A stretch of 33,141 nucleotides of DNA from a virus. Location of the stretch: the IMG/VR virus record IMGVR_UViG_3300040751_001230, positions 1 to 33,141 of that record; one strand, given 5' to 3'. The first letter of the stretch is position 1. Every line of letters starts with the position of its first letter. The notes under the pieces were generated by a model. It ran no database searches and had not been told where the DNA came from. It saw nothing but the letters and a program-made list of their open reading frames with translations. Below, piece by piece: positions 11,562 through 20,243 of the stretch. The position numbers were made by a program, and so were the translations under genes.

Positions 11562-11720
11562 CTATTTAGTTTTTTTGGCTGTTACTTTTTTAGATTTGTA
11601 TAGTTTAGCGTGTGGAACTTTCAAGTTCTTTTTACCGTATATATTACCTATTTTGTGTGTATACGACATGTGTGCTGGATCTAATCCGTAAAAGTAATCT
11701 GTTACTTCACGAATTTTCAT
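11562..11720 (-). CDS. Small basic hypothetical protein
   Basis: An open frame of 52 residues (MKIREVTDYFYGLDPAHMSY..., ending KKVTAKKTK) fills the 183-nt space between the genes on either side. It begins 1 nt after the stop of the upstream gene and has the same strand. The C-terminal half is lysine-rich. The opening MKIREVTDYF resembles the short helical starts of other proteins of this operon. No family is recognised. The coding call rests on tight packing, a sensible start and lysine-rich, phage-like composition. Confidence 0.6.
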   Translation of the reverse strand: MKIREVTDYFYGLDPAHMSYTHKIGNIYGKKNLKVPHAKLYKSKKVTAKKTK

Positions 11721-11721
11721 G

Positions 11722-12177
11722 TTAAACTTTTACGCCGGGTTTTTGAACTGGTTGTTGATTTTTTTGTAAAAATCTTTCAAGAGCGTCTATAGTGTTTTGT
11801 AAATCACGTTCTTCGGTTGGTTTAGCAGACATACCTTGCATACCTTTTAGCATAGGTAACATCATTATAATCAACTTATTCATTTGCTGAACCGGACCTA
11901 TTTTTTCTAGAATACCTAAAAACTTTTCCATTGCTTGGTCCGGCGGAATAGTGCCTTGTTGAAATCCTTGATTTGTTTGCTTTAATTGTCTTATAAGCAT
12001 TTGATCGTTTTCATTAGTTCCAGTAGTAGCATTCTTAATCCATTTTTTTAATCTTGCAAGAACACTTGATGTCTGACCTGTTGTTTTAGTCTTTTGTTTG
12101 CTGTTGTGTCCAAATGTTGAATCTAAACTACCTTTTACGTCTGACCAAGTGTTTTCACTAAACTCTATAAATTTCAT
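11722..12177 (-). CDS. Hypothetical protein of the late operon
   Basis: A 151-residue protein, not recognised. It starts MKFIEFSENTWSDVKGSLDS. The region of about residues 70-120 is Met- and Leu-rich (MNKLIIMMLPMLKGMQGM) and may be an amphipathic or membrane-active helix. The end is Gln/Pro-rich (KNQQPVQKPGVKV). Its ATG at 12177 overlaps the last base of the stop of the next upstream gene. The N-terminus is one of several in this operon that resemble capsid-targeting peptides; see findings. A packaged or scaffold-associated protein is possible. Confidence 0.6.
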   Translation of the reverse strand: MKFIEFSENTWSDVKGSLDSTFGHNSKQKTKTTGQTSSVLARLKKWIKNATTGTNENDQMLIRQLKQTNQGFQQGTIPPDQAMEKFLGILEKIGPVQQMNKLIIMMLPMLKGMQGMSAKPTEERDLQNTIDALERFLQKNQQPVQKPGVKV

Positions 12178-12800
12178 TATTTTTGGTCCTCTAAAAATTC
12201 TAAATATTCTTTGAATAAACTTTTACTGGTAGGTTTTGCTTTATCTTCTGCACTAAGTTTATCTTTGATAATTTTAGATCTTCTTAGTTTGATAGCATCT
12301 GCTGTTTCTTTATCCATTGAGCCTGATTTACGAATTTGTCTTTCTAAATCATCTAGATCTTTTGTATGTCTTTTAAGTTTGTCACTGTCTTTTTCTTCGT
12401 TATACATAACTGCTTCGAAAATTTTATTCAACTTGCTTTCGATGTTATCTAGTCTTGCTTCAATTTCTGCATAAGGATTTGTATTTGAAGGAATAGTTTG
12501 TACAGGCTCAGCATACATAGTGCTTGGATTTGGTTGTGCTGGACTTGGTCTTGATCTTGGTGTGCTGTTTCCTAGACCTGCTAGTGCCGCCATGTCATTT
12601 GTGCTTACATCTGTAACACCCGGAATATGTTTGCCACGAACACTTTCGTTAACATTTCTTGCATGTGCATTTGCATTTACGTCAGTTCCAGAACCTGTTG
12701 ATTGTTCTTTTGCTGGTGCAACCGGAGCGTCAACTGTTAGTCCTTGGTTTTTAATTCCTAGTTGATTAAACTTGTTTAGTATGTTGTGAATATCACTCAT
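12177..12800 (-). CDS. Hypothetical coiled-coil protein of the late operon
   Basis: A 207-residue protein. Residues 1-110 are low complexity (Ala, Asn, Pro, Ser, Thr) and probably disordered. Residues about 112-165 form a coiled coil (EIEARLDNIESKLNKIFEAV, then KRHTKDLDDLERQIRKSG). The end is a charged helix (LFKEYLEFLEDQK). The layout resembles scaffold or core proteins of phage heads, but no specific family is recognised. It lies between the CxxC-module gene at 12811-13890 and the gene at 11722. Confidence 0.6.
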   Translation of the reverse strand: MSDIHNILNKFNQLGIKNQGLTVDAPVAPAKEQSTGSGTDVNANAHARNVNESVRGKHIPGVTDVSTNDMAALAGLGNSTPRSRPSPAQPNPSTMYAEPVQTIPSNTNPYAEIEARLDNIESKLNKIFEAVMYNEEKDSDKLKRHTKDLDDLERQIRKSGSMDKETADAIKLRRSKIIKDKLSAEDKAKPTSKSLFKEYLEFLEDQK

Positions 12801-12810
12801 AATTAACCTT

Positions 12811-13890
12811 TTACTTTTTAATTTTTACACAGTTATCAACTGTTTTTCCGCCCTTTTGTTTGGTGCCCATACGCTTGTAGCCTTTCCAGCATACTTTGCC
12901 ATCAACACCTTTTTGCTTTTCTTCATCAAGTGTAGTGTAACTAGGCTTACCACATTCTTTACATAAGCCTTTTGATTCGTTAAGTTTGCGTTCTAAACTT
13001 TCAAAGTAGTCATCTTTAGCATCTTTCATTGACACCATGCGTTTCTTTTCCATAGCCTGTTGACGCTCACCTTCCATGTATGCATGAAGTGTTTTGATTT
13101 TTTCGTGTACACCACTTAATTTATTTTGAAACCATTCTGGAAATACGCCACCTTTGTGTACGTGATCTCTGATTTCGTCAGCCGCATATTTAATAAATGC
13201 AATTTGATTATCTAGCATTTCACCTTCGTAATCACTTGCTGGTTCGTCATAGTGATCTTCTTGTACACTATTTGTTTGTATTTGATTGATTTTTTGTCTT
13301 CGGCTATCCATTTGTTTCGTTATAATTTGGTGCGATTTATTCATCAGTTCTAATTGTTTATCAAAATGTTTCATAAACTGATCGTGTGGCATTTTGCTAT
13401 AATCTATACTATCAAGTTTTTTTAATTCTTGTTGTATATATTGAAATTCTCTTGCAAGAGAGTCATCTTTAGTAGGCACTGCTCTTCTGCCATCTGTACC
13501 CATTTGTTTAAGAGTAGCATCATTAGGAAAAACACCAAATGCTTGTCCTATGTTTTTCATTAAATAGGCAAATGGTCCATTTGTGCTTGGACCCATTCCA
13601 ACTTCAGAAACTTCAGTTTCGAATACTCTATCTAAGATTTCTTCTCTTGTGTAACTTTCCCCTTGTGCAGGATTGCTATTGGTATTATTTGGGTTTCTTG
13701 CTCTTAATGCTTTTAAATTTTGTAATTCCTTATTGTTTAAACTAGCATTTTGTTTGTATTTTTGTGTAAGAACATTAAGAGTTTTTTGTGCGTTATGTAA
13801 CGCATCAGCATATTTTTGAATTTCACCTACTGCGATTTCTAAATCTGAATATTTTGTTTTGTCATCAGCAGTTCTAATTTGCATTGGCAT
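12811..13890 (-). CDS. Hypothetical protein with C-terminal Cys-rich basic module
   Basis: A 359-residue, mostly helical, hydrophilic protein. An N-terminal coiled coil (residues about 12-65) is followed by a linker with YTREEILDRVFETEVSEVG and further helices. The last 50 residues change character: LCKECGKPSYTTLDEEKQKG has a CxxC pair, and GKVCWKGYKRMGTKQKGG with TVDNCVKI adds two more Cys in a Lys/Gly-rich context. I have seen this tail on otherwise unrelated marine-phage proteins. It looks like a small zinc- or nucleic-acid-binding module. The start is ATG at 13890 with GAGGAG upstream. Function unknown. Confidence 0.65.
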   Translation of the reverse strand: MPMQIRTADDKTKYSDLEIAVGEIQKYADALHNAQKTLNVLTQKYKQNASLNNKELQNLKALRARNPNNTNSNPAQGESYTREEILDRVFETEVSEVGMGPSTNGPFAYLMKNIGQAFGVFPNDATLKQMGTDGRRAVPTKDDSLAREFQYIQQELKKLDSIDYSKMPHDQFMKHFDKQLELMNKSHQIITKQMDSRRQKINQIQTNSVQEDHYDEPASDYEGEMLDNQIAFIKYAADEIRDHVHKGGVFPEWFQNKLSGVHEKIKTLHAYMEGERQQAMEKKRMVSMKDAKDDYFESLERKLNESKGLCKECGKPSYTTLDEEKQKGVDGKVCWKGYKRMGTKQKGGKTVDNCVKIKK

Positions 13891-13892
13891 TT

Positions 13893-14651
13893 TTATGTAC
13901 TCCTCTTTAGTGTGCCACCAAATATTGAAGTCCCTTTCATATCTAGTGCATTGTCGGTTGGTTTTTGTTTTTTTGCTTTTGGTGGATTAGGTACTGCACC
14001 TACCAAAGACCCGTATTTTTTACGTGTCTTTTTATCACCAATAGCCATGTGTGGATTTACAACTACAGATACATCGCTTACAGAAGTGCCGCCTGCTGTT
14101 GCTACTTCGTCTAATTGATTAAGTGCATTAAAGATTGTGTTTTCTGTTTTTTCTTCTTTGTGAAAAGGACTATATTTTTTGTAAATTTTCATATCAGGAT
14201 CTAGGATTTTCATCATACCGCTGATTGCTTCTGACTCTTTTTGTCCTCTTTGCCATACGCTGTGATCATCACTGTATTGATAAGTCCAATCATGACTTTT
14301 AAGCATGTCAACGTATTTGTCCATTGCTTCAGGACCTAAATCTTTTACCTGCTGTTGTCTAATTTTTTCAGAACGATCAATTTCTGCTTGTTTTTCGGCT
14401 TCATCATCTTGATATACTTTACCAAGCACATCTTTCATTTTGTCATTCATAGGACCAAGTTCTGCTGGGTCTGCTTCATCCATCTTTTTATACTTTTCTT
14501 TGCGTGGAATAACTTTAGTCTTGTCCTTGTGAGCACCAGCGGCACCACTACGGCGTATATCCTGCATTGTTTGTGCGTTAGGATCACGTGCTTTAATAGG
14601 CTTATCTTTGCCCTCTACTGTAACAGTGTTATCTATGTCTAGCATTTTCAT
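13893..14651 (-). CDS. Hypothetical basic protein of the late operon
   Basis: A 252-residue protein, highly charged (Lys, Asp, Glu). The N-terminal part reads ARDPNAQTMQDIRRSGAAGA then HKDKTKVIPRKEKYKK, a basic stretch I associate with DNA-contacting marine-phage proteins. The centre is helical. The last 70 residues contain the hydrophobic VSDVSVVVNPHMAIG and end GTSIFGGTLKRST. No enzyme motif is visible. The start MKMLDIDNT may be the first or third codon; there is no strong ribosome-binding site. Probably a virion or core protein by position. Confidence 0.6.
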   Translation of the reverse strand: MKMLDIDNTVTVEGKDKPIKARDPNAQTMQDIRRSGAAGAHKDKTKVIPRKEKYKKMDEADPAELGPMNDKMKDVLGKVYQDDEAEKQAEIDRSEKIRQQQVKDLGPEAMDKYVDMLKSHDWTYQYSDDHSVWQRGQKESEAISGMMKILDPDMKIYKKYSPFHKEEKTENTIFNALNQLDEVATAGGTSVSDVSVVVNPHMAIGDKKTRKKYGSLVGAVPNPPKAKKQKPTDNALDMKGTSIFGGTLKRST

Positions 14652-14659
14652 ACTACTAT

Positions 14660-16249
14660 TTACCCTTTTTTACGTCCTGATTTCATGTTTGCACACCAGT
14701 GATACATCTTTGCTTTTTCGCCACTAGCGTTTTTTGCCTTCTTACGTAAACTAGTTACCGATCCTTTGCAACTAGCACCGGCACGTTTGACTCTACCCGG
14801 GCGTGATTTACCCTTTTTTTTACCGTCTGCAAAGTTTTCTACAACCTTTAGTAGATCGTCTATAGGTAACTCTTTACCTGTTTTTCTTTTAAAGTTAACT
14901 CGCAGGTAACGCATTATATTAGTAAATTCTTCTCTAGACAGTTTTCCTGCTTTTAAATCTTTAGAAGCATGTCGAATCATAGCCTTTGCATTGTCTAATG
15001 CTCTAGGAAAATTTATTTGTTGGGCTCGTGCTATTTCGTCTGGAGTTCTTTTTTTATTAACTGCTTTAAGCAAGTCATCTACATAACCGCCGTGATCATT
15101 AGCAGGTTTTTGCAGATTAGGTTTTTGCGTTTTTGCTTTGTCTAATGCTTTTTTAACTGCGTTAAATCCGTATCTTTTTACAAGTTCTCTAATCGTTACA
15201 CCAGCCGCCGCTAGTGCCGCAATTACAGCAGGATGTTCTACAATAATTGATTCTTCTATGTTTTCATTCTTTTTTTTACGGCCAGCACAGTGCGCCTTTT
15301 GACTAAATCCTTTGGGATTACTACAATCAATGCTTTTCTTATATTTTGCACTCCACTTTTCCATGACCGTTTTTACTTCCTCAAGTGTAAGTGGAATACG
15401 AGCAACTTCAGCATAACCGCTGTTCAGTTGTTTTAGCACTTCGTATCTGTGATGTCCGTTAATAATTCTATAGTTTTTATCTACTACAATAGGAGCGAAA
15501 CGATTCTCTGTAAGACGTTTATACTGCTTTTGTAGATTTTCTGTAACAAGTTCTTTTTGCACTGGACAAACTACCTCCAAGTCTACTGTTTCTACAGCGT
15601 GTGGAATATAGTTTAAGTGTTCTTTAGTTACCTGTGGCAATTCTGAACGTTTATATGTTTCTTTTGGTTCTTGTGTGACTCTAGTGCTTACCATTAAGTC
15701 ACTGTCTTGCGGTTCTTGTACATCTCCCCTAAAGAACCTGTCCAATCCCATTTTAATAGTTTCAAGTGAATCTTCGTCGGCTTGATACTTAATACCATAA
15801 CCGCCAGCCGCGATCCAGTCACGTATATTTTTACCCCTATCGTCTATGAGAATGTTTGGGGTACCGTCCGGTTGGGTTGCCCACTTAGGCTTTCTACCAG
15901 TAATGATAATATCCTTTGGTAGTGGGTTAAGATGCTTTGATATCCAAACTCTTTTGTGTTTTTCAGAGTTTTTATTATCCCCGCGTAATGGACTTGAACA
16001 AATATTATAATGATCAGTGTAACTTAGTACTAGTTTTAACAGTTGTGGTACTGTTTTAAACATAGGCAGTCTTGCAAAAAAGTCAGTGCCTATCATTTTG
16101 TCTAGTGTAGGATCTACTTTTGCAGGAGGTATATCTCTGTATGAGCCTGTAGTTACTCCTGCTAACTTTGCATACTCCGCAAAGAAGTCAGCCAAGACAC
16201 CGTCCATGTCTAGATAAATTTCTGTAGGAGTATTATCTGTTTGGCTCAT
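14660..16249 (-). CDS. Fusion: HAD deoxyribonucleotidase-like domain + ParB-like domain + Cys-rich basic tails
   Basis: A 529-residue multidomain protein. Residues about 10-170 are a 5'(3')-deoxyribonucleotidase-like HAD domain: IYLDMDGVLADFF (nucleophile D-x-D), YNICSSP, and NILIDDRGKNIRDW (acidic motif IV). Residues about 195-300 resemble a ParB/sulfiredoxin-type domain: RFAPIVVDKNYRIINGHHRY, with the G-H-x-R core. Residues about 305-326 carry CSNPKGFSQKAHCAGRKKK. A helical stretch follows. The last 50 residues carry KRAGASCKGSVTSLRKKAKN and YHWCANMKSGRKKG, a second Cys-containing basic module. Roles could include dNMP removal and DNA binding; the fusion as a whole has no function known to me. 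Its TAATG-like junction with the 72-residue gene suggests coupling. Confidence 0.72.
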   Translation of the reverse strand: MSQTDNTPTEIYLDMDGVLADFFAEYAKLAGVTTGSYRDIPPAKVDPTLDKMIGTDFFARLPMFKTVPQLLKLVLSYTDHYNICSSPLRGDNKNSEKHKRVWISKHLNPLPKDIIITGRKPKWATQPDGTPNILIDDRGKNIRDWIAAGGYGIKYQADEDSLETIKMGLDRFFRGDVQEPQDSDLMVSTRVTQEPKETYKRSELPQVTKEHLNYIPHAVETVDLEVVCPVQKELVTENLQKQYKRLTENRFAPIVVDKNYRIINGHHRYEVLKQLNSGYAEVARIPLTLEEVKTVMEKWSAKYKKSIDCSNPKGFSQKAHCAGRKKKNENIEESIIVEHPAVIAALAAAGVTIRELVKRYGFNAVKKALDKAKTQKPNLQKPANDHGGYVDDLLKAVNKKRTPDEIARAQQINFPRALDNAKAMIRHASKDLKAGKLSREEFTNIMRYLRVNFKRKTGKELPIDDLLKVVENFADGKKKGKSRPGRVKRAGASCKGSVTSLRKKAKNASGEKAKMYHWCANMKSGRKKG

Positions 16250-16467
16250 TATTTTTTGCGTCCTCTAAATCCTGTTGGCATGCCTGTCATGTATGGTCTA
16301 CTAAACCATAACTTAAACCAATCACTGTCGCCCGGTTTTACACCTAGTTTCTTTTCTTTGTCTTTTAGTGCCTGTGCTGTGTGCGATATGTTTTCAAAGT
16401 TAACAGGTTGTTGACCTTTAAATTCGTTAGTAATACCAGCAAGTTTTTGTAATTCTTCTTTGGTCAC
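16249..16467 (-). CDS. Small hypothetical protein with WFKLWF tail
   Basis: A 72-residue protein, MTKEELQKLAGITNEFKGQQ at the start. Its C-terminal third is GDSDWFKLWFSRPYMTGM followed by PTGFRGRKK. A similar 'WFKLWFxxPxLTG' tail is familiar to me from other marine-phage proteins, so this may be a stand-alone copy of a modular tail. No domain with known function. The gene is tightly packed between the HAD/ParB fusion and the 170-residue gene. Confidence 0.6.
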   Translation of the reverse strand: MTKEELQKLAGITNEFKGQQPVNFENISHTAQALKDKEKKLGVKPGDSDWFKLWFSRPYMTGMPTGFRGRKK

Positions 16468-16980
16468 TTATAGTCCTTCTAGCATCCTTGCAATAACTTG
16501 ATCTAGTGCGCCTTCAAAATCGCCTTTTTCCATTAACTTCGCCGCTTTAGGAAATTTATTTGCTAGGTCTTCATATGTATCTATAATAGCATCAACATCT
16601 TGTTCTGAAATATCTAACTTAAGAGCAATGTTTTTCCTCATATCCGGATCAGTTGCATACACCATGTCAGGTAACATTTTGCCTATTTCTTGTGCTATTC
16701 CATCTTTATTCCATTTTGCGTATGTTTTTAGCATACCAAAATTATAACCCATTCTTGTTAACTCTTGGCTACCCATTCTAGCACCTGCTCTAGCAAAAGG
16801 AATACCCTTCTTAATAAGGTTATTGTAGATATCCTGTGAAGTAATTTGCTCTAAAGGTTTTTCAATAACTTGTTCTAGGTATTGTCTAACTTCTTGCACT
16901 CTACCTGCAACTTCTTTGATTGCATTGATAATGTGCATGATTTCTTGTTTGCCTTCGATTATAAAGTCTCTTGCTCTCAT
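16468..16980 (-). CDS. Hypothetical protein with capsid-targeting-like N-terminus
   Basis: A 170-residue, all-helical protein, not recognised. It begins MRARDFIIEGKQEI: a short basic/hydrophobic start with I-I-E followed by Gly, which resembles the targeting peptide of T4 internal proteins cut after (L/I)-x-E. The rest is a series of helices (AGRVQEVRQYLEQVIEKPLE; ISEQDVDAIIDTYEDLANKF) with no catalytic motif. It overlaps the end of the nucleotidyltransferase gene by 4 nt. A packaged core protein is a reasonable guess. Confidence 0.6.
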   Translation of the reverse strand: MRARDFIIEGKQEIMHIINAIKEVAGRVQEVRQYLEQVIEKPLEQITSQDIYNNLIKKGIPFARAGARMGSQELTRMGYNFGMLKTYAKWNKDGIAQEIGKMLPDMVYATDPDMRKNIALKLDISEQDVDAIIDTYEDLANKFPKAAKLMEKGDFEGALDQVIARMLEGL

Positions 16981-17720
16981 ATTAGTTTATACCCCTTCAT
17001 CATTTTTTTAAGGGTGCCTTTCTTAACATCCTTAGTTGTGTTTTGTTTAGTAATTATACCTACGCCAGCCGCTTCTTCAGTTTGTGTATCTTGTATGCCC
17101 ATACCTTGACGTACTCTATTGTACATTTGTTTTGCAAGAGTTTCGTTACCAGGAACACTGCTTTTAAAACCAGGCTGTGTTTGACCTGTTTCGTCTTTCC
17201 AATCTTCAAATTTTCCTTCAGCGGCAAGTTTCTTTACCTTACTTGCACTCATACCCTCAATACCGTCAGCATCTGGATCACGTTCTCCACTGCTAAACAC
17301 TCTTATGTTTCTAAATGCAAAAGGAATTTCGCCTGACTTATCAGGTTTGTTGTTATACTTGTCAACTAATGATTGGTATTGATCTATTCTATCACTACCT
17401 GCAACAATAGCAACATTTGTATAACCTTTGCCTTGCAAACTTTGTAAGGCTTGTATTATTGTTTTAATACTTGAGTTTCTATCAATCGAAATCTGAAACA
17501 TTTCGCTTGCAAAATGTAATTTTTCTGCAAATGATAATGGATTCTTTTTAGCATCCTGTGTCTTTGTTAAAAAAAGAATTGGATCGCCTTGAGTCTTTTG
17601 TGCAATAGACTTAACAGTTTCAATAACCTTGTTATGTCCGATGGTAGGCGGATTCATTCGACCCCATGCTATAACTGCTGTTTTTTGAGGTTGTGCTTCT
17701 AGCAACTCCTTTAGTAGCAT
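16977..17720 (-). CDS. Nucleotidyltransferase (cytidylyltransferase-like fold) with capsid-targeting-like N-terminus
   Basis: A 247-residue protein. AVIAWGRMNPPTIGHNKVIE (T-x-G-H at 26-29) is the ATP-binding motif of the HxGH nucleotidyltransferases (NMN/pantetheine adenylyl- and cytidylyltransferases). VAIVAGSDR and GMSASKVKKLA (about 155) match the second and third family signatures ('ISSTxVR'-like). It would join a nucleotide to a phosphorylated substrate, perhaps an NAD precursor or a sugar phosphate. The first nine residues MLLKELLEA precede the fold and look like an added targeting peptide; L-L-E/A fits a head-protease site. The end is Lys-rich (KGTLKKMMKGYKLI). This predicts an enzyme carried in the head, by inference. 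Confidence 0.75.
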   Translation of the reverse strand: MLLKELLEAQPQKTAVIAWGRMNPPTIGHNKVIETVKSIAQKTQGDPILFLTKTQDAKKNPLSFAEKLHFASEMFQISIDRNSSIKTIIQALQSLQGKGYTNVAIVAGSDRIDQYQSLVDKYNNKPDKSGEIPFAFRNIRVFSSGERDPDADGIEGMSASKVKKLAAEGKFEDWKDETGQTQPGFKSSVPGNETLAKQMYNRVRQGMGIQDTQTEEAAGVGIITKQNTTKDVKKGTLKKMMKGYKLI

Positions 17721-18067
17721 TATAACTCCTTAGGATCGTATTGGCCGTCTTTAATTTCTTCTAAGTGACTTTCAGCAAACTGTCTTGCTACTTTTTCTTT
17801 AAGATCTTTTGTATAAATTTCTTCAACGTTACCTGGAAGTTTATATTCTTCTTGATACTTTTTACATCCTTGTTCAACCATGGCCATAAAACATTCATAA
17901 CAAGAATCATCGTCTAAAAGATTTTTTCTTTTTAATTCATCAACCGCAGGTAAAAAGTATTCCTTATGTAGGTCGTCTTGTTGTTCGATATAAAATTTAA
18001 TATCGTCTACAAGTACATCAGGAGTATCGGTTGATATGTTATTATCAAAAAGTTCTTTTAAGAGCAT
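17720..18067 (-). CDS. Hypothetical protein with capsid-targeting-like N-terminus
   Basis: A 115-residue acidic helical protein beginning MLLKELFDNNISTD. The first six residues are identical to those of the next gene (nucleotidyltransferase) although all five codons after ATG differ. That suggests either selection on the peptide or old divergence. T4 Alt also begins with a similar peptide (from memory). The remainder (DDIKFYIEQQDDLHKEYFLP; CYECFMAMVEQGCKKYQEE) is helical with a CxxC pair but has no known fold. It lies 6 nt after the 713-residue gene. Confidence 0.6.
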   Translation of the reverse strand: MLLKELFDNNISTDTPDVLVDDIKFYIEQQDDLHKEYFLPAVDELKRKNLLDDDSCYECFMAMVEQGCKKYQEEYKLPGNVEEIYTKDLKEKVARQFAESHLEEIKDGQYDPKEL

Positions 18068-18073
18068 TGTGCA

Positions 18074-20215
18074 TCACCATTTTCTGCATGACCAGTAACG
18101 TGCTTTGTGCTTAGGACCCGGTGAATCACAGTTGTGTCTTGCACGGAAACTCTTACGTCTCTCCGGATTAGATCTTTTAATTTTCATATCTGGATCACCG
18201 AAGTTAACTTTAACTACGTTACCTTTTGGATTTTTTACGTATACTTTAAATTTCTTAACGTCACCACGCATTGGCTTGTTAAGTTTTACAGTACGTCCTT
18301 GATATTCTGCTTCTTCTATGTGTTCTTCGTTTTCGCCGATCCACCCAAATGATTCATAAAATTCGTCACCGTGTAGTGTTACGTCATTTAAGCCGTTAAA
18401 CCATTCTGTAATTTCTTCACTTTCGTTTTGAATGCTTTCTAGTTCAAGATCTTTAAACAATTCTTTTGCTTCATCGCTCTTAGGGTCGAGCATTTTGTCT
18501 TTGAAGTTCTTTTCTGCTCGTGCTACCATATCTGGATCACCCTTACGTGTTTCTTTGCCTTGTGCATCTCTTGCATATACACCTGACTTAGGTGGCATAG
18601 TTGGATTACCATCTGGACCAGTTTGTTGATTTTTAGGATCAAATGGATCAGTTGCCTGTGCATCATTTTGATAGTTAGGATTTCCGTCACCTACATTGTT
18701 ATCAGTTTGTACCCAACCGTTGCTGTGGTGACTGTTTTTAAACTTTTCAATTTCTTCTGGTGTAGCATAGATTCTATATTTCTTACCTTGCCACTCCCAA
18801 TGTGTTTTAGGTTTGCTAGTGTCAATATTAAAATTAACTGTATTACCGTTAGATTGAATACGTCTGTTGTGATAAGTTAATGACTCATACATGCCGTCAA
18901 ATTGTAAATCAGGCATTGTGTCAGTAGTATTACTACCTGCCTGAGAAGTTCCAGTTGTACTATCGGTTCCATCAGTACCTGCTTTACCTGTAAGTTCTGC
19001 GGCCATGTCTTGTGCATCGTTTTTAATAACGTTTGCCATTTTTTCAGCATGTGATTTACTTTGTAATGCCATGTCTAGTTCGTTTTTATTAACAAGATCT
19101 GCTAACTCTTTCTTGCCTCTTAACGCACTACCTGCAATCATAACTTGAATGTCAGTACCTTGTTCAACCATTTGAGTCATATCTGCAAAGGCTTGTTCAT
19201 CTCCACGGTATGCTCTATTAACAGTTAGAATTGCTTCTCTCCATTCTAGTTTATCAGTAGCATCAACTGCTTGTAATTTTAATGCTAACATTTTTAATTC
19301 GTGATTGATATTTCTTATTTCGCCTGCCTGTTTCCATTCAGCAAAACTTAAATCAGCAAGTGCTTCGTTACGGTCAGTGTAGAAGTTACCGTCATCACTC
19401 TTGCTCCAATGTTTATATTGATCAAGTGCTACCCAACGGCTACCAACTTTTCTATGTGTACCTGTGTAATCACCATTACCTTGCCAACCCGGAGGATTGC
19501 CTTGGAAATCTGCATTAAACTCTTGACCGTATTTGTATGCAGGTAAACCAAAGCCTAGATCTAATAAACTTTGTACTTGAAACTCACGTGTTACTTTACC
19601 AGTCCAAATTGGGCGACCGTCAACTGCCATTGGAACATAACTTTTTCGTCCGTCAGCAAATCTAATTGCTTGATACATTCCACCGCCACGTTTAATAGGC
19701 TCTTCGTCCCAAAGGATTTCAAGTTGGCCACGCTCATTAAGTTGACCTTCTTCTTCTATGGACTTTGCGATATCGCTTTTAAATGTAGAAGTCGATTCAA
19801 ATTCATCTTCGTTATCGTCTTTGTAGGGTATTTCTGAATCTGGGTCTTTTACTAATGGTAATTCTTTATGTTTTTCCATTGCGGCTTGAACAACTTTAAC
19901 AAGTTCAGGTCCAAGTTTTTTCTCGCTGTCATGGACCATATTGCCCACTTTGCTTATAAACAAGGAAAGTTCATCATTGTTTTTGATTAGTTGTGCTAGT
20001 TCAGATAGTTTAAAAGCAATCTCTGCTCTTTCATCTGTAAATTGTTTAATGTTAGCACTGCTGTATTTGATTTGTGATTTGCTTGGTTCAGCAAAAACAG
20101 CGTCATTGATATCAGCAATTACATCAGCGGCAGTCTTGTACTCTTTACGTTGTACTTCCTTCTTTGCCTCAGAAGTAATACTGTCTATTTTATCTATTAA
20201 ATTTCTAAAGTCCAT
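18074..20215 (-). CDS. Large late-operon protein with C-terminal Cys-rich basic module
   Basis: A 713-residue hydrophilic protein, first gene behind a T4-type late element. Residues 1-130 are helical (LIDKIDSITSEAKKEVQRKE). The middle holds a repetitive Trp/Gly-rich region (QGNPPGWQGNGDYTGTHRK). A Gly/Thr/Asn-rich linker (about 410-440) follows, then KPKTHWEWQGKKYRIYATPE. The last 80 residues (YQGRTVKLNKPMRGDVKKFK, then SNPERRKSFRARHNCD and ARYWSCRKW) form a basic module with two Cys and clustered Arg. I have seen this module on other marine-phage proteins. No enzyme motif is found. It is most likely a structural or core protein of the head by operon position. Confidence 0.65.
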   Translation of the reverse strand: MDFRNLIDKIDSITSEAKKEVQRKEYKTAADVIADINDAVFAEPSKSQIKYSSANIKQFTDERAEIAFKLSELAQLIKNNDELSLFISKVGNMVHDSEKKLGPELVKVVQAAMEKHKELPLVKDPDSEIPYKDDNEDEFESTSTFKSDIAKSIEEEGQLNERGQLEILWDEEPIKRGGGMYQAIRFADGRKSYVPMAVDGRPIWTGKVTREFQVQSLLDLGFGLPAYKYGQEFNADFQGNPPGWQGNGDYTGTHRKVGSRWVALDQYKHWSKSDDGNFYTDRNEALADLSFAEWKQAGEIRNINHELKMLALKLQAVDATDKLEWREAILTVNRAYRGDEQAFADMTQMVEQGTDIQVMIAGSALRGKKELADLVNKNELDMALQSKSHAEKMANVIKNDAQDMAAELTGKAGTDGTDSTTGTSQAGSNTTDTMPDLQFDGMYESLTYHNRRIQSNGNTVNFNIDTSKPKTHWEWQGKKYRIYATPEEIEKFKNSHHSNGWVQTDNNVGDGNPNYQNDAQATDPFDPKNQQTGPDGNPTMPPKSGVYARDAQGKETRKGDPDMVARAEKNFKDKMLDPKSDEAKELFKDLELESIQNESEEITEWFNGLNDVTLHGDEFYESFGWIGENEEHIEEAEYQGRTVKLNKPMRGDVKKFKVYVKNPKGNVVKVNFGDPDMKIKRSNPERRKSFRARHNCDSPGPKHKARYWSCRKW

Positions 20216-20235: not shown

Positions 20236-20243
20236 TATTTATA
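20236..20243 (-). promoter_or_regulatory. T4-type late promoter element
   Basis: TATAAATA on the minus strand (20243-20236), an exact match to the T4 late promoter consensus, 20 nt upstream of the ATG at 20215. The leader carries AGGAG. It would drive the long run of genes from 20215 down to about 10888. Confidence 0.75.

Follow-up and report, generated by a model that had tools for sequence, protein, structure and literature searches.

The DNA analysed here (the window) is a 33,141-base virus fragment from IMG/VR (IMGVR_UViG_3300040751_001230) that carries T4-type replication genes. A block of genes on its minus strand, running from position 20215 down to 11562, is very likely, judging from its sequence, a virion-cargo operon of a marine T4-like phage, in which several proteins bear shortened capsid-targeting peptides (tags) of the T4 type. 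This interpretation is drawn because the tags resemble the label that loads proteins into the T4 head and because relatives of one of the proteins have been found in virions. The original prediction had named four starts in this region, and all four open reading frames begin where it placed them, on the minus strand. The tagged and possibly tagged genes, with a slash marking the predicted cut site, are the following.

18074 to 20215, minus strand: first gene of the block, 713 amino acids; start MDFRNLIDKIDSITSE/AKK at 20168-20215; C-terminal Cys-rich module (phrog_7595).
17720 to 18067, minus strand: tagged helical protein, 115 amino acids; Alt-like start MLLKELFDNN, tag at 18047-18067.
16977 to 17720, minus strand: tagged NMNAT/cytidylyltransferase-like enzyme, 247 amino acids; tag MLLKELLE/A at 17697-17720.
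16468 to 16980, minus strand: tagged protein, 170 amino acids; tag MRARDFIIE/G at 16954-16980.
11722 to 12177, minus strand: possibly tagged protein, 151 amino acids; start MKFIEF at 12160-12177.
11562 to 11720, minus strand: further tagged small gene, 52 amino acids (MKIREVTDYFYGLD), absent from the original list; start MKIREVTDYF.

Targeting in T4 takes no more than the initial ten residues of internal protein III (IPIII), MKTYQEFIAE/A; positions 4 and 7 matter for targeting, whereas processing depends on positions 8 and 10, the gp21 cut falling behind L/I-x-E (PMC9026906). A regular expression derived from T4 served as a positive control and matched 4 of 274 predicted T4 genes, these being only IPII, IPIII, gp24 and gp2. 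It had been claimed that two of the window starts carry (L/I)-x-E followed by Ala or Gly. Indeed, the gp21 site stands at the tag end of 16977-17720 (LLE/A) and 16468-16980 (IIE/G). MLLKELFDNN contains only L-K-E/L, as in T4 Alt (MELITE/LFDED), and both this start and MKFIEFSENT, the weakest of the four, match the tag form only loosely. That form in this lineage is M[RK]xx[E/D]-hydrophobic-hydrophobic-x-E/[A/G/R], which is the T4 form minus one residue. The window tags can be fitted to targeting positions 4 and 7 of IPIII only by deleting one residue, and the first of these positions is Ala in MRARDFIIEG; the cyanophage homologues have hydrophobic residues at both. Direct reading of the codons also confirmed that the MLLKEL pair differs at all five codons following ATG (CTC TTA AAA GAA CTT in 17720-18067; CTA CTA AAG GAG TTG in 16977-17720).

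The peptides are short, MK and MR starts are common in phage genes and the four starts had been chosen by eye, which leaves room for the likeness to arise from chance, a common translation-start bias or paralogy. So that no pattern had to be picked with the data in view, the block genes were compared with random gene sets from the same genome by their mean pairwise BLOSUM62 score over residues 2-9. The 11 block genes of the window scored −2.24 versus −6.65 ± 1.03 for random sets (p = 5e-4) and were the best of 42 contiguous runs. In a 181,867-base relative (G001) the corresponding values were −0.22 versus −6.64 ± 1.11 (p = 5e-5), the best of 181 runs. The same test over residues 11-18 gave no excess likeness (p about 0.7). 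Since residues 2-9 are alike and residues 11-18 are not, genes with otherwise unrelated bodies have in common a peptide some nine residues long. These permutation results, the absence of likeness beyond residue 10, the encoding of the same peptide by different codons and the unrelated bodies together make chance, start bias or paralogy a highly improbable explanation. When a strict L/I-x-E was demanded, its E lying within residues 7-12, the block was not significantly enriched in G001 (p = 0.21) or in the cultured pelagiphage relative HTVC008M (p = 0.27), and the claim therefore rests on the wider tag.

Alignment of homologues, proposed earlier as a check, showed that the starts are kept. MLLxEL is invariant in seven of seven homologues of 17720-18067 and M R A..F..E G in four of four homologues of 16468-16980. 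For the cytidylyltransferase, 12 of 12 homologues have the glutamate of the tag in register (one needed aligner gaps), and the E and A of the tag are conserved. The homologue starts, those of 17720-18067 among them, keep the peptide while their codons vary synonymously. Homologues of 11722-12177 start MRFTEF or MRFKEF, and those of 11562-11720 start MKIREV, MKICEV or MKIKEI (in contigs L010, L004 and L011). The start of 18074-20215, MDFRNLIDKIDSITSEA, had been overlooked; its E-A is kept in relatives even though the middle of the protein differs, and EAK is kept in L004, L009, L010, L012 and others.

The tag is also portable. Among the cytidylyltransferase homologues, the same enzyme stands behind varied tags (MLLKELLEA, MLVKELLLEA, MKLFEFIAEA, MIKNFSQYLVEE, MKSFQQFLSEA), and some copies are untagged and start straight at the enzyme (MKKAVIAWGRMN). 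For the nucleotidase of 14660-16249, the window has no tag and relatives have one (MRLFEI in L004 and L011, MKITEVLVER in G001), and in L240 a module of this protein stands alone behind a tag (MRIVEVLENFADGKKK). Likewise, Cys-rich modules that are fused inside window genes occur elsewhere as stand-alone tagged genes (MRYYEIISEA, MRIVEVLENFADGKKK, MKRYKDWLVEA); the phrog_7595 module of 18074-20215 is found behind the canonical tags MKRYKDWLVEA and MISFKDFISEA. A family near the packaging genes joins the short and long tag forms (MDFKKYLAEA/SKQYDFVIKLAGELPE in G001, MKRFGEFLTEA/KKEYQFKIGVAGELPE in L163).

A scan of 2.9 million viral contigs for DNA that would encode MKxF-x-x-F-(L/F)-x-EA returned at least 120 matches. 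Among the matches listed, 117 had no upstream in-frame ATG, i.e., they were gene starts, and their proteins fell into 28 unrelated clusters, the largest being the cytidylyltransferase family (77). A control scan with EA swapped to AE gave 38 matches, only 15 of them without an upstream ATG. Some gene-start matches of this control (in L202, L205, L216, L221 and L222) resemble further tag variants (MKKFKTFLEAENRTPRKKGQH, MKSFIQFLLAEGAGHLTHVEDSV), and since the control includes such likely variants, tagged genes should be more numerous than the strict pattern shows. Elsewhere, the adjacent genes S-SZBM1_191 and S-SZBM1_192 (L229, 27312-28126) lie between terminase genes and carry near-T4 tags (MKSFKSFLSES, MKTFKQYITEA), which suggests a second cargo site in that genome.

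Homologues of the enzyme of 16977-17720 have been detected by mass spectrometry in virions of four cyanophages, and the genes read in this analysis carry a tag in four of four cases. The enzyme T4-GC190 was found in purified S-SM1 virions (PMC3037559), and its gene starts MKKFSAFLNEA. The other homologues detected in purified virions were S-SCSM1_91 (PMC9602691), starting MKSFLQFLKEA; S-SZBM1_140, with two peptides (PMC9146016), starting MRFRQFIIE/A, which is close to and of the same form as MRARDFIIE/G of 16468-16980; and S-CREM2_154, with three peptides (PMC10665884), starting MKNFSSFLTEA. Moreover, the syntenic block of S-SCSM1, upstream of gene 61, has nine genes, of which seven carry a virion-protein annotation (hypergeometric p = 5e-5), and the enrichment of the block in S-SCSM1, S-SZBM1 and S-CREM2 combined has p = 9e-5. 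These homologues might instead be abundant cytoplasmic enzymes that co-purify with virions, the tag governing stability or turnover; co-purification was raised by the proteome authors themselves, and the peptide counts for S-CREM2_154 and S-SZBM1_140 are low. However, the same enzyme was recovered from four T4-like phages in separate studies, each time with a tag, and adjacent genes of the block were detected in virions too, which makes this explanation quite unlikely. No paper tying the cyanophage cytidylyltransferase/NMNAT to a capsid-targeting tag was found among the open-licence papers searched, of which a single review mentions both cyanophages and the capsid-targeting sequence.

The search for a gp21-type protease, also proposed earlier, succeeded in the relatives G001 and G002 and not within the window. 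G001 encodes both gp21 (PF03420, 2.4e-26) and gp23 (PF07068, 3.1e-98), and its gp23 reads KYLAE/AATAGATSAGNVATL where a cut site would be expected; the motif there, LAE/A, is the same as in the tags. Among the cyanophage gp23 proteins read in this analysis, those of S-SZBM1 and S-CREM2 have LTE/A at the corresponding place. A new observation made here is that one gene of the block encodes a protein in which, on sequence comparison, two parts of the major capsid protein gp23 are copied, its cut site and its N-terminal arm.

13893 to 14651, minus strand: cargo candidate, 252 amino acids; LDE cut motif at 14106-14114, followed by a gp23 N-arm mimic VATAGGTSVSDVSVVVNP (about 14052-14105).

The window protein contains LDE/VATAGGTSVSDVSVV, the relative's gp23 used for comparison reads KYLAE/AATAGATSAGNVATLN, and the glutamate (E182) is invariant in eight homologues. 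Proteins with such copies of the gp23 cut site and N-arm are encoded by 13893-14651 of the window, L061, L009 (5240-5470), L230 (13343-14236) and L069 (12805-13353). When the G001 homologue was scored against the gp23 arm of G001 itself, it reached 52, and its shuffled versions at most 44. The corresponding values, with shuffle maxima in brackets, were 56 (41) for the L009 copy, which is tagged and stands alone, 62 (38) for the copy in S-SM1_197 and 95 (50) for S-CREM2_160, a virion-detected protein compared with the gp23 of its own phage. The window copy alone was not significant (35, shuffle maximum 46), nor was the mimic in HTVC008M. Independently of these scores, PHROG 17311 gives weak matches to gp23 as well as to the L009 cargo. 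The arm copies probably serve to attach cargo to the inner face of the shell; alternatively, they may just be the substrate that the protease cuts best.

A similar arrangement was found in T4 itself. The 54-residue gp61.1 (NC_000866; L232 18966-19130, minus strand) joins a tag, MKTFKEFIKE/D, to a copy of the mature N-arm of gp23, which scored 69 where shuffled sequences reached at most 42, and its gene adjoins gene 61, like the arm-bearing genes of cyanophages. It differs from the window protein in being tiny and basic-tailed, whereas the arm of the window lies inside a 252-residue protein. Homologues of gp61.1 match in 1,387 phage records, some of which name them major capsid protein; the T4 protein is uncharacterised and is mentioned in only two of the open-licence papers searched.

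The T4 internal proteins IPI, IPII and IPIII provide the model for this arrangement: a short N-terminal peptide with two spaced hydrophobic positions and L/I-x-E/A, cut by gp21 in T4, is shared by unrelated mature bodies. In contrast to them, the window tags are varied and usually one residue shorter, the bodies include enzymes (NMNAT-like) where those of the T4 internal proteins are small basic inhibitors, and packaging is a step that we infer for this phage. T4 Alt, an injected ADP-ribosyltransferase (MELITELFDED), and the vertex protein gp24 (MAKINELLRES) have starts resembling MLLKELFDNN and MLLKELLEAQ, although their bodies are unrelated to the window proteins. Cyanophage T4-GC190 is a homologous enzyme (about 31-38% identity) from the same genomic block, tagged and virion-detected, yet the S-SM1 and S-SCSM1 proteins have canonical 11-residue tags and extra domains.

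By analogy with T4, the tag would bind the scaffold core during prohead assembly and a gp21-type protease would cut after the tag glutamate, at the motif seen in the sequence. The freed enzymes would remain in the head alongside the DNA, as suggested by others' mass spectrometry of homologues and neighbouring block proteins, and the cargo would be injected together with the DNA. The second module, the copy of the gp23 cut site and mature N-arm in 13893-14651, would probably dock cargo to the inner shell. That cargo is loaded and cut in this phage is an inference, as is its injection by any of the marine relatives. The tag might instead be a sorting signal for another assembly (baseplate, neck, membrane site or host complex), given that virion proteomics cannot tell head from tail, that the tags are amphipathic and that an E-A cut site is missing from certain tags of the lineage (MRIDEVVNN). 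This is unlikely in view of the close match of the tags to those of the T4 internal proteins, Alt and gp24 and to the gp21 cut motif, and of the gp23 arm and cut-site mimic held by the same block.

Several observations weigh against the cargo-operon interpretation. The mass spectrometry concerns cyanophage homologues and not this phage, and the proteome authors leave cargo versus co-purifying contaminant undecided for the enzyme (PMC9602691). Taken alone, the syntenic blocks of S-SZBM1 (3 of 11 virion proteins, p = 0.18) and S-CREM2 (4 of 8, p = 0.09) are not significantly enriched, and some virion-detected block proteins of other phages carry no tag. The block genes beginning at 12811, 14660 and 16249 have no N-terminal tag either, MKFIEFSENT has no strict L/I-x-E site, the G001 cytidylyltransferase copy (MRIDEVVNN) has lost the canonical E-A, and the HTVC008M block has only loose tag matches and no canonical one. 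The 33-kb window, a fragment of a genome, contains neither gp21 nor gp23. Finally, the lineage-specific regular expressions were shaped after seeing the data, unlike the permutation test and the contig scan. The earlier proposal of capsid targeting in the manner of the T4 internal proteins and Alt, with cleavage by gp21, is nonetheless favoured by the tagged homologues in virions, the portability of the tag and the gp21 and gp23 motif of a relative, with MKFIEFSENT as its loosest member.

Cyanophage proteomes have repeatedly contained an NMNAT-like enzyme that could be cargo or contamination, and a packaging tag makes this question directly testable. A portable tag would let injected proteins be predicted from sequence in very abundant ocean viruses, and proteins injected in the first minute may serve in counter-defence or in taking over the host. 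The copies of the gp23 arm point to another way of anchoring cargo that has not been described before, and they give T4 gp61.1 a role that experiments could test. More broadly, the T4 superfamily may use a cargo code, made of a portable cleavable tag (N-terminal, possibly also C-terminal) and a copy of the gp23 cut site and arm that anchors cargo to the shell; such a code would load many unrelated enzymes in marine phages and explain the conserved gp61.1 of T4, and we consider the case for such a code evenly balanced.

The remaining features of the block are the following.

20236 to 20243, minus strand: T4 late-promoter-like TATAAATA, just upstream of the first block gene.
16249 to 16467, minus strand: untagged protein, 72 amino acids; start EELQKLAGI.
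14660 to 16249, minus strand: untagged protein, 529 amino acids; 5'-deoxyribonucleotidase, ParB-like and Cys-rich modules (PHROG matches).
12811 to 13890, minus strand: untagged protein, 359 amino acids; C-terminal Cys-rich module (CWKGYKRMGTKQKGGKTVDNCV).
12177 to 12800, minus strand: protein with no N-terminal tag, 207 amino acids; possibly tag-like C-terminus LFKEYLEFLEDQK at 12180-12218.

The promoter-like TATAAATA is the sole exact copy in the window, and since one was found versus 3.9 expected by chance, only its position is suggestive. The protein of 16977-17720 matches PHROG cytidyltransferase (E = 1.1e-47) and has the homologous nucleotidyltransferase domain with GRMNPPTIGH and GMSASK motifs; a PDB sequence search with it returned only S-layer matches, judged spurious. 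The AlphaFold model of 17720-18067 has a mean predicted local distance difference test score (pLDDT) of 80 overall, with low confidence at residues 1-14, and its predicted fold had no PDB match, while the model of 16468-16980 was of too low quality for a fold search. For the block genes of no known function, PADLOC and Pfam returned nothing useful.

The small gene 11562-11720 has a relative in L009 (MKIKEIILGYD..) that is fused to a Cys-rich module, and a Cys-rich module like that of 12811-13890 (CWPGYEKKGTKK...NNCV) also occurs in virion-detected S-CREM2_160. Tag-like C-termini similar to that of 12177-12800 are seen in virion-detected SSCSM1_93 (RTFKEFLEYIE; L228 7627-7836) and in L004 and L012 (FASFLKEFE, FASFLKELE), and cyanophage gp21 proteins have similar C-terminal ends (ISAFEAFLKSL). 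A LAG[I/L] motif recurs at the start of 16249-16467 and at two C-termini in G001, that of the putative scaffold gp22 (LRRLAGLN) and that of the gene downstream of the terminase (IKTLAGIRK); the loci concerned are window 16249-16467, L057 17372-18457 and G001 33518-35584.

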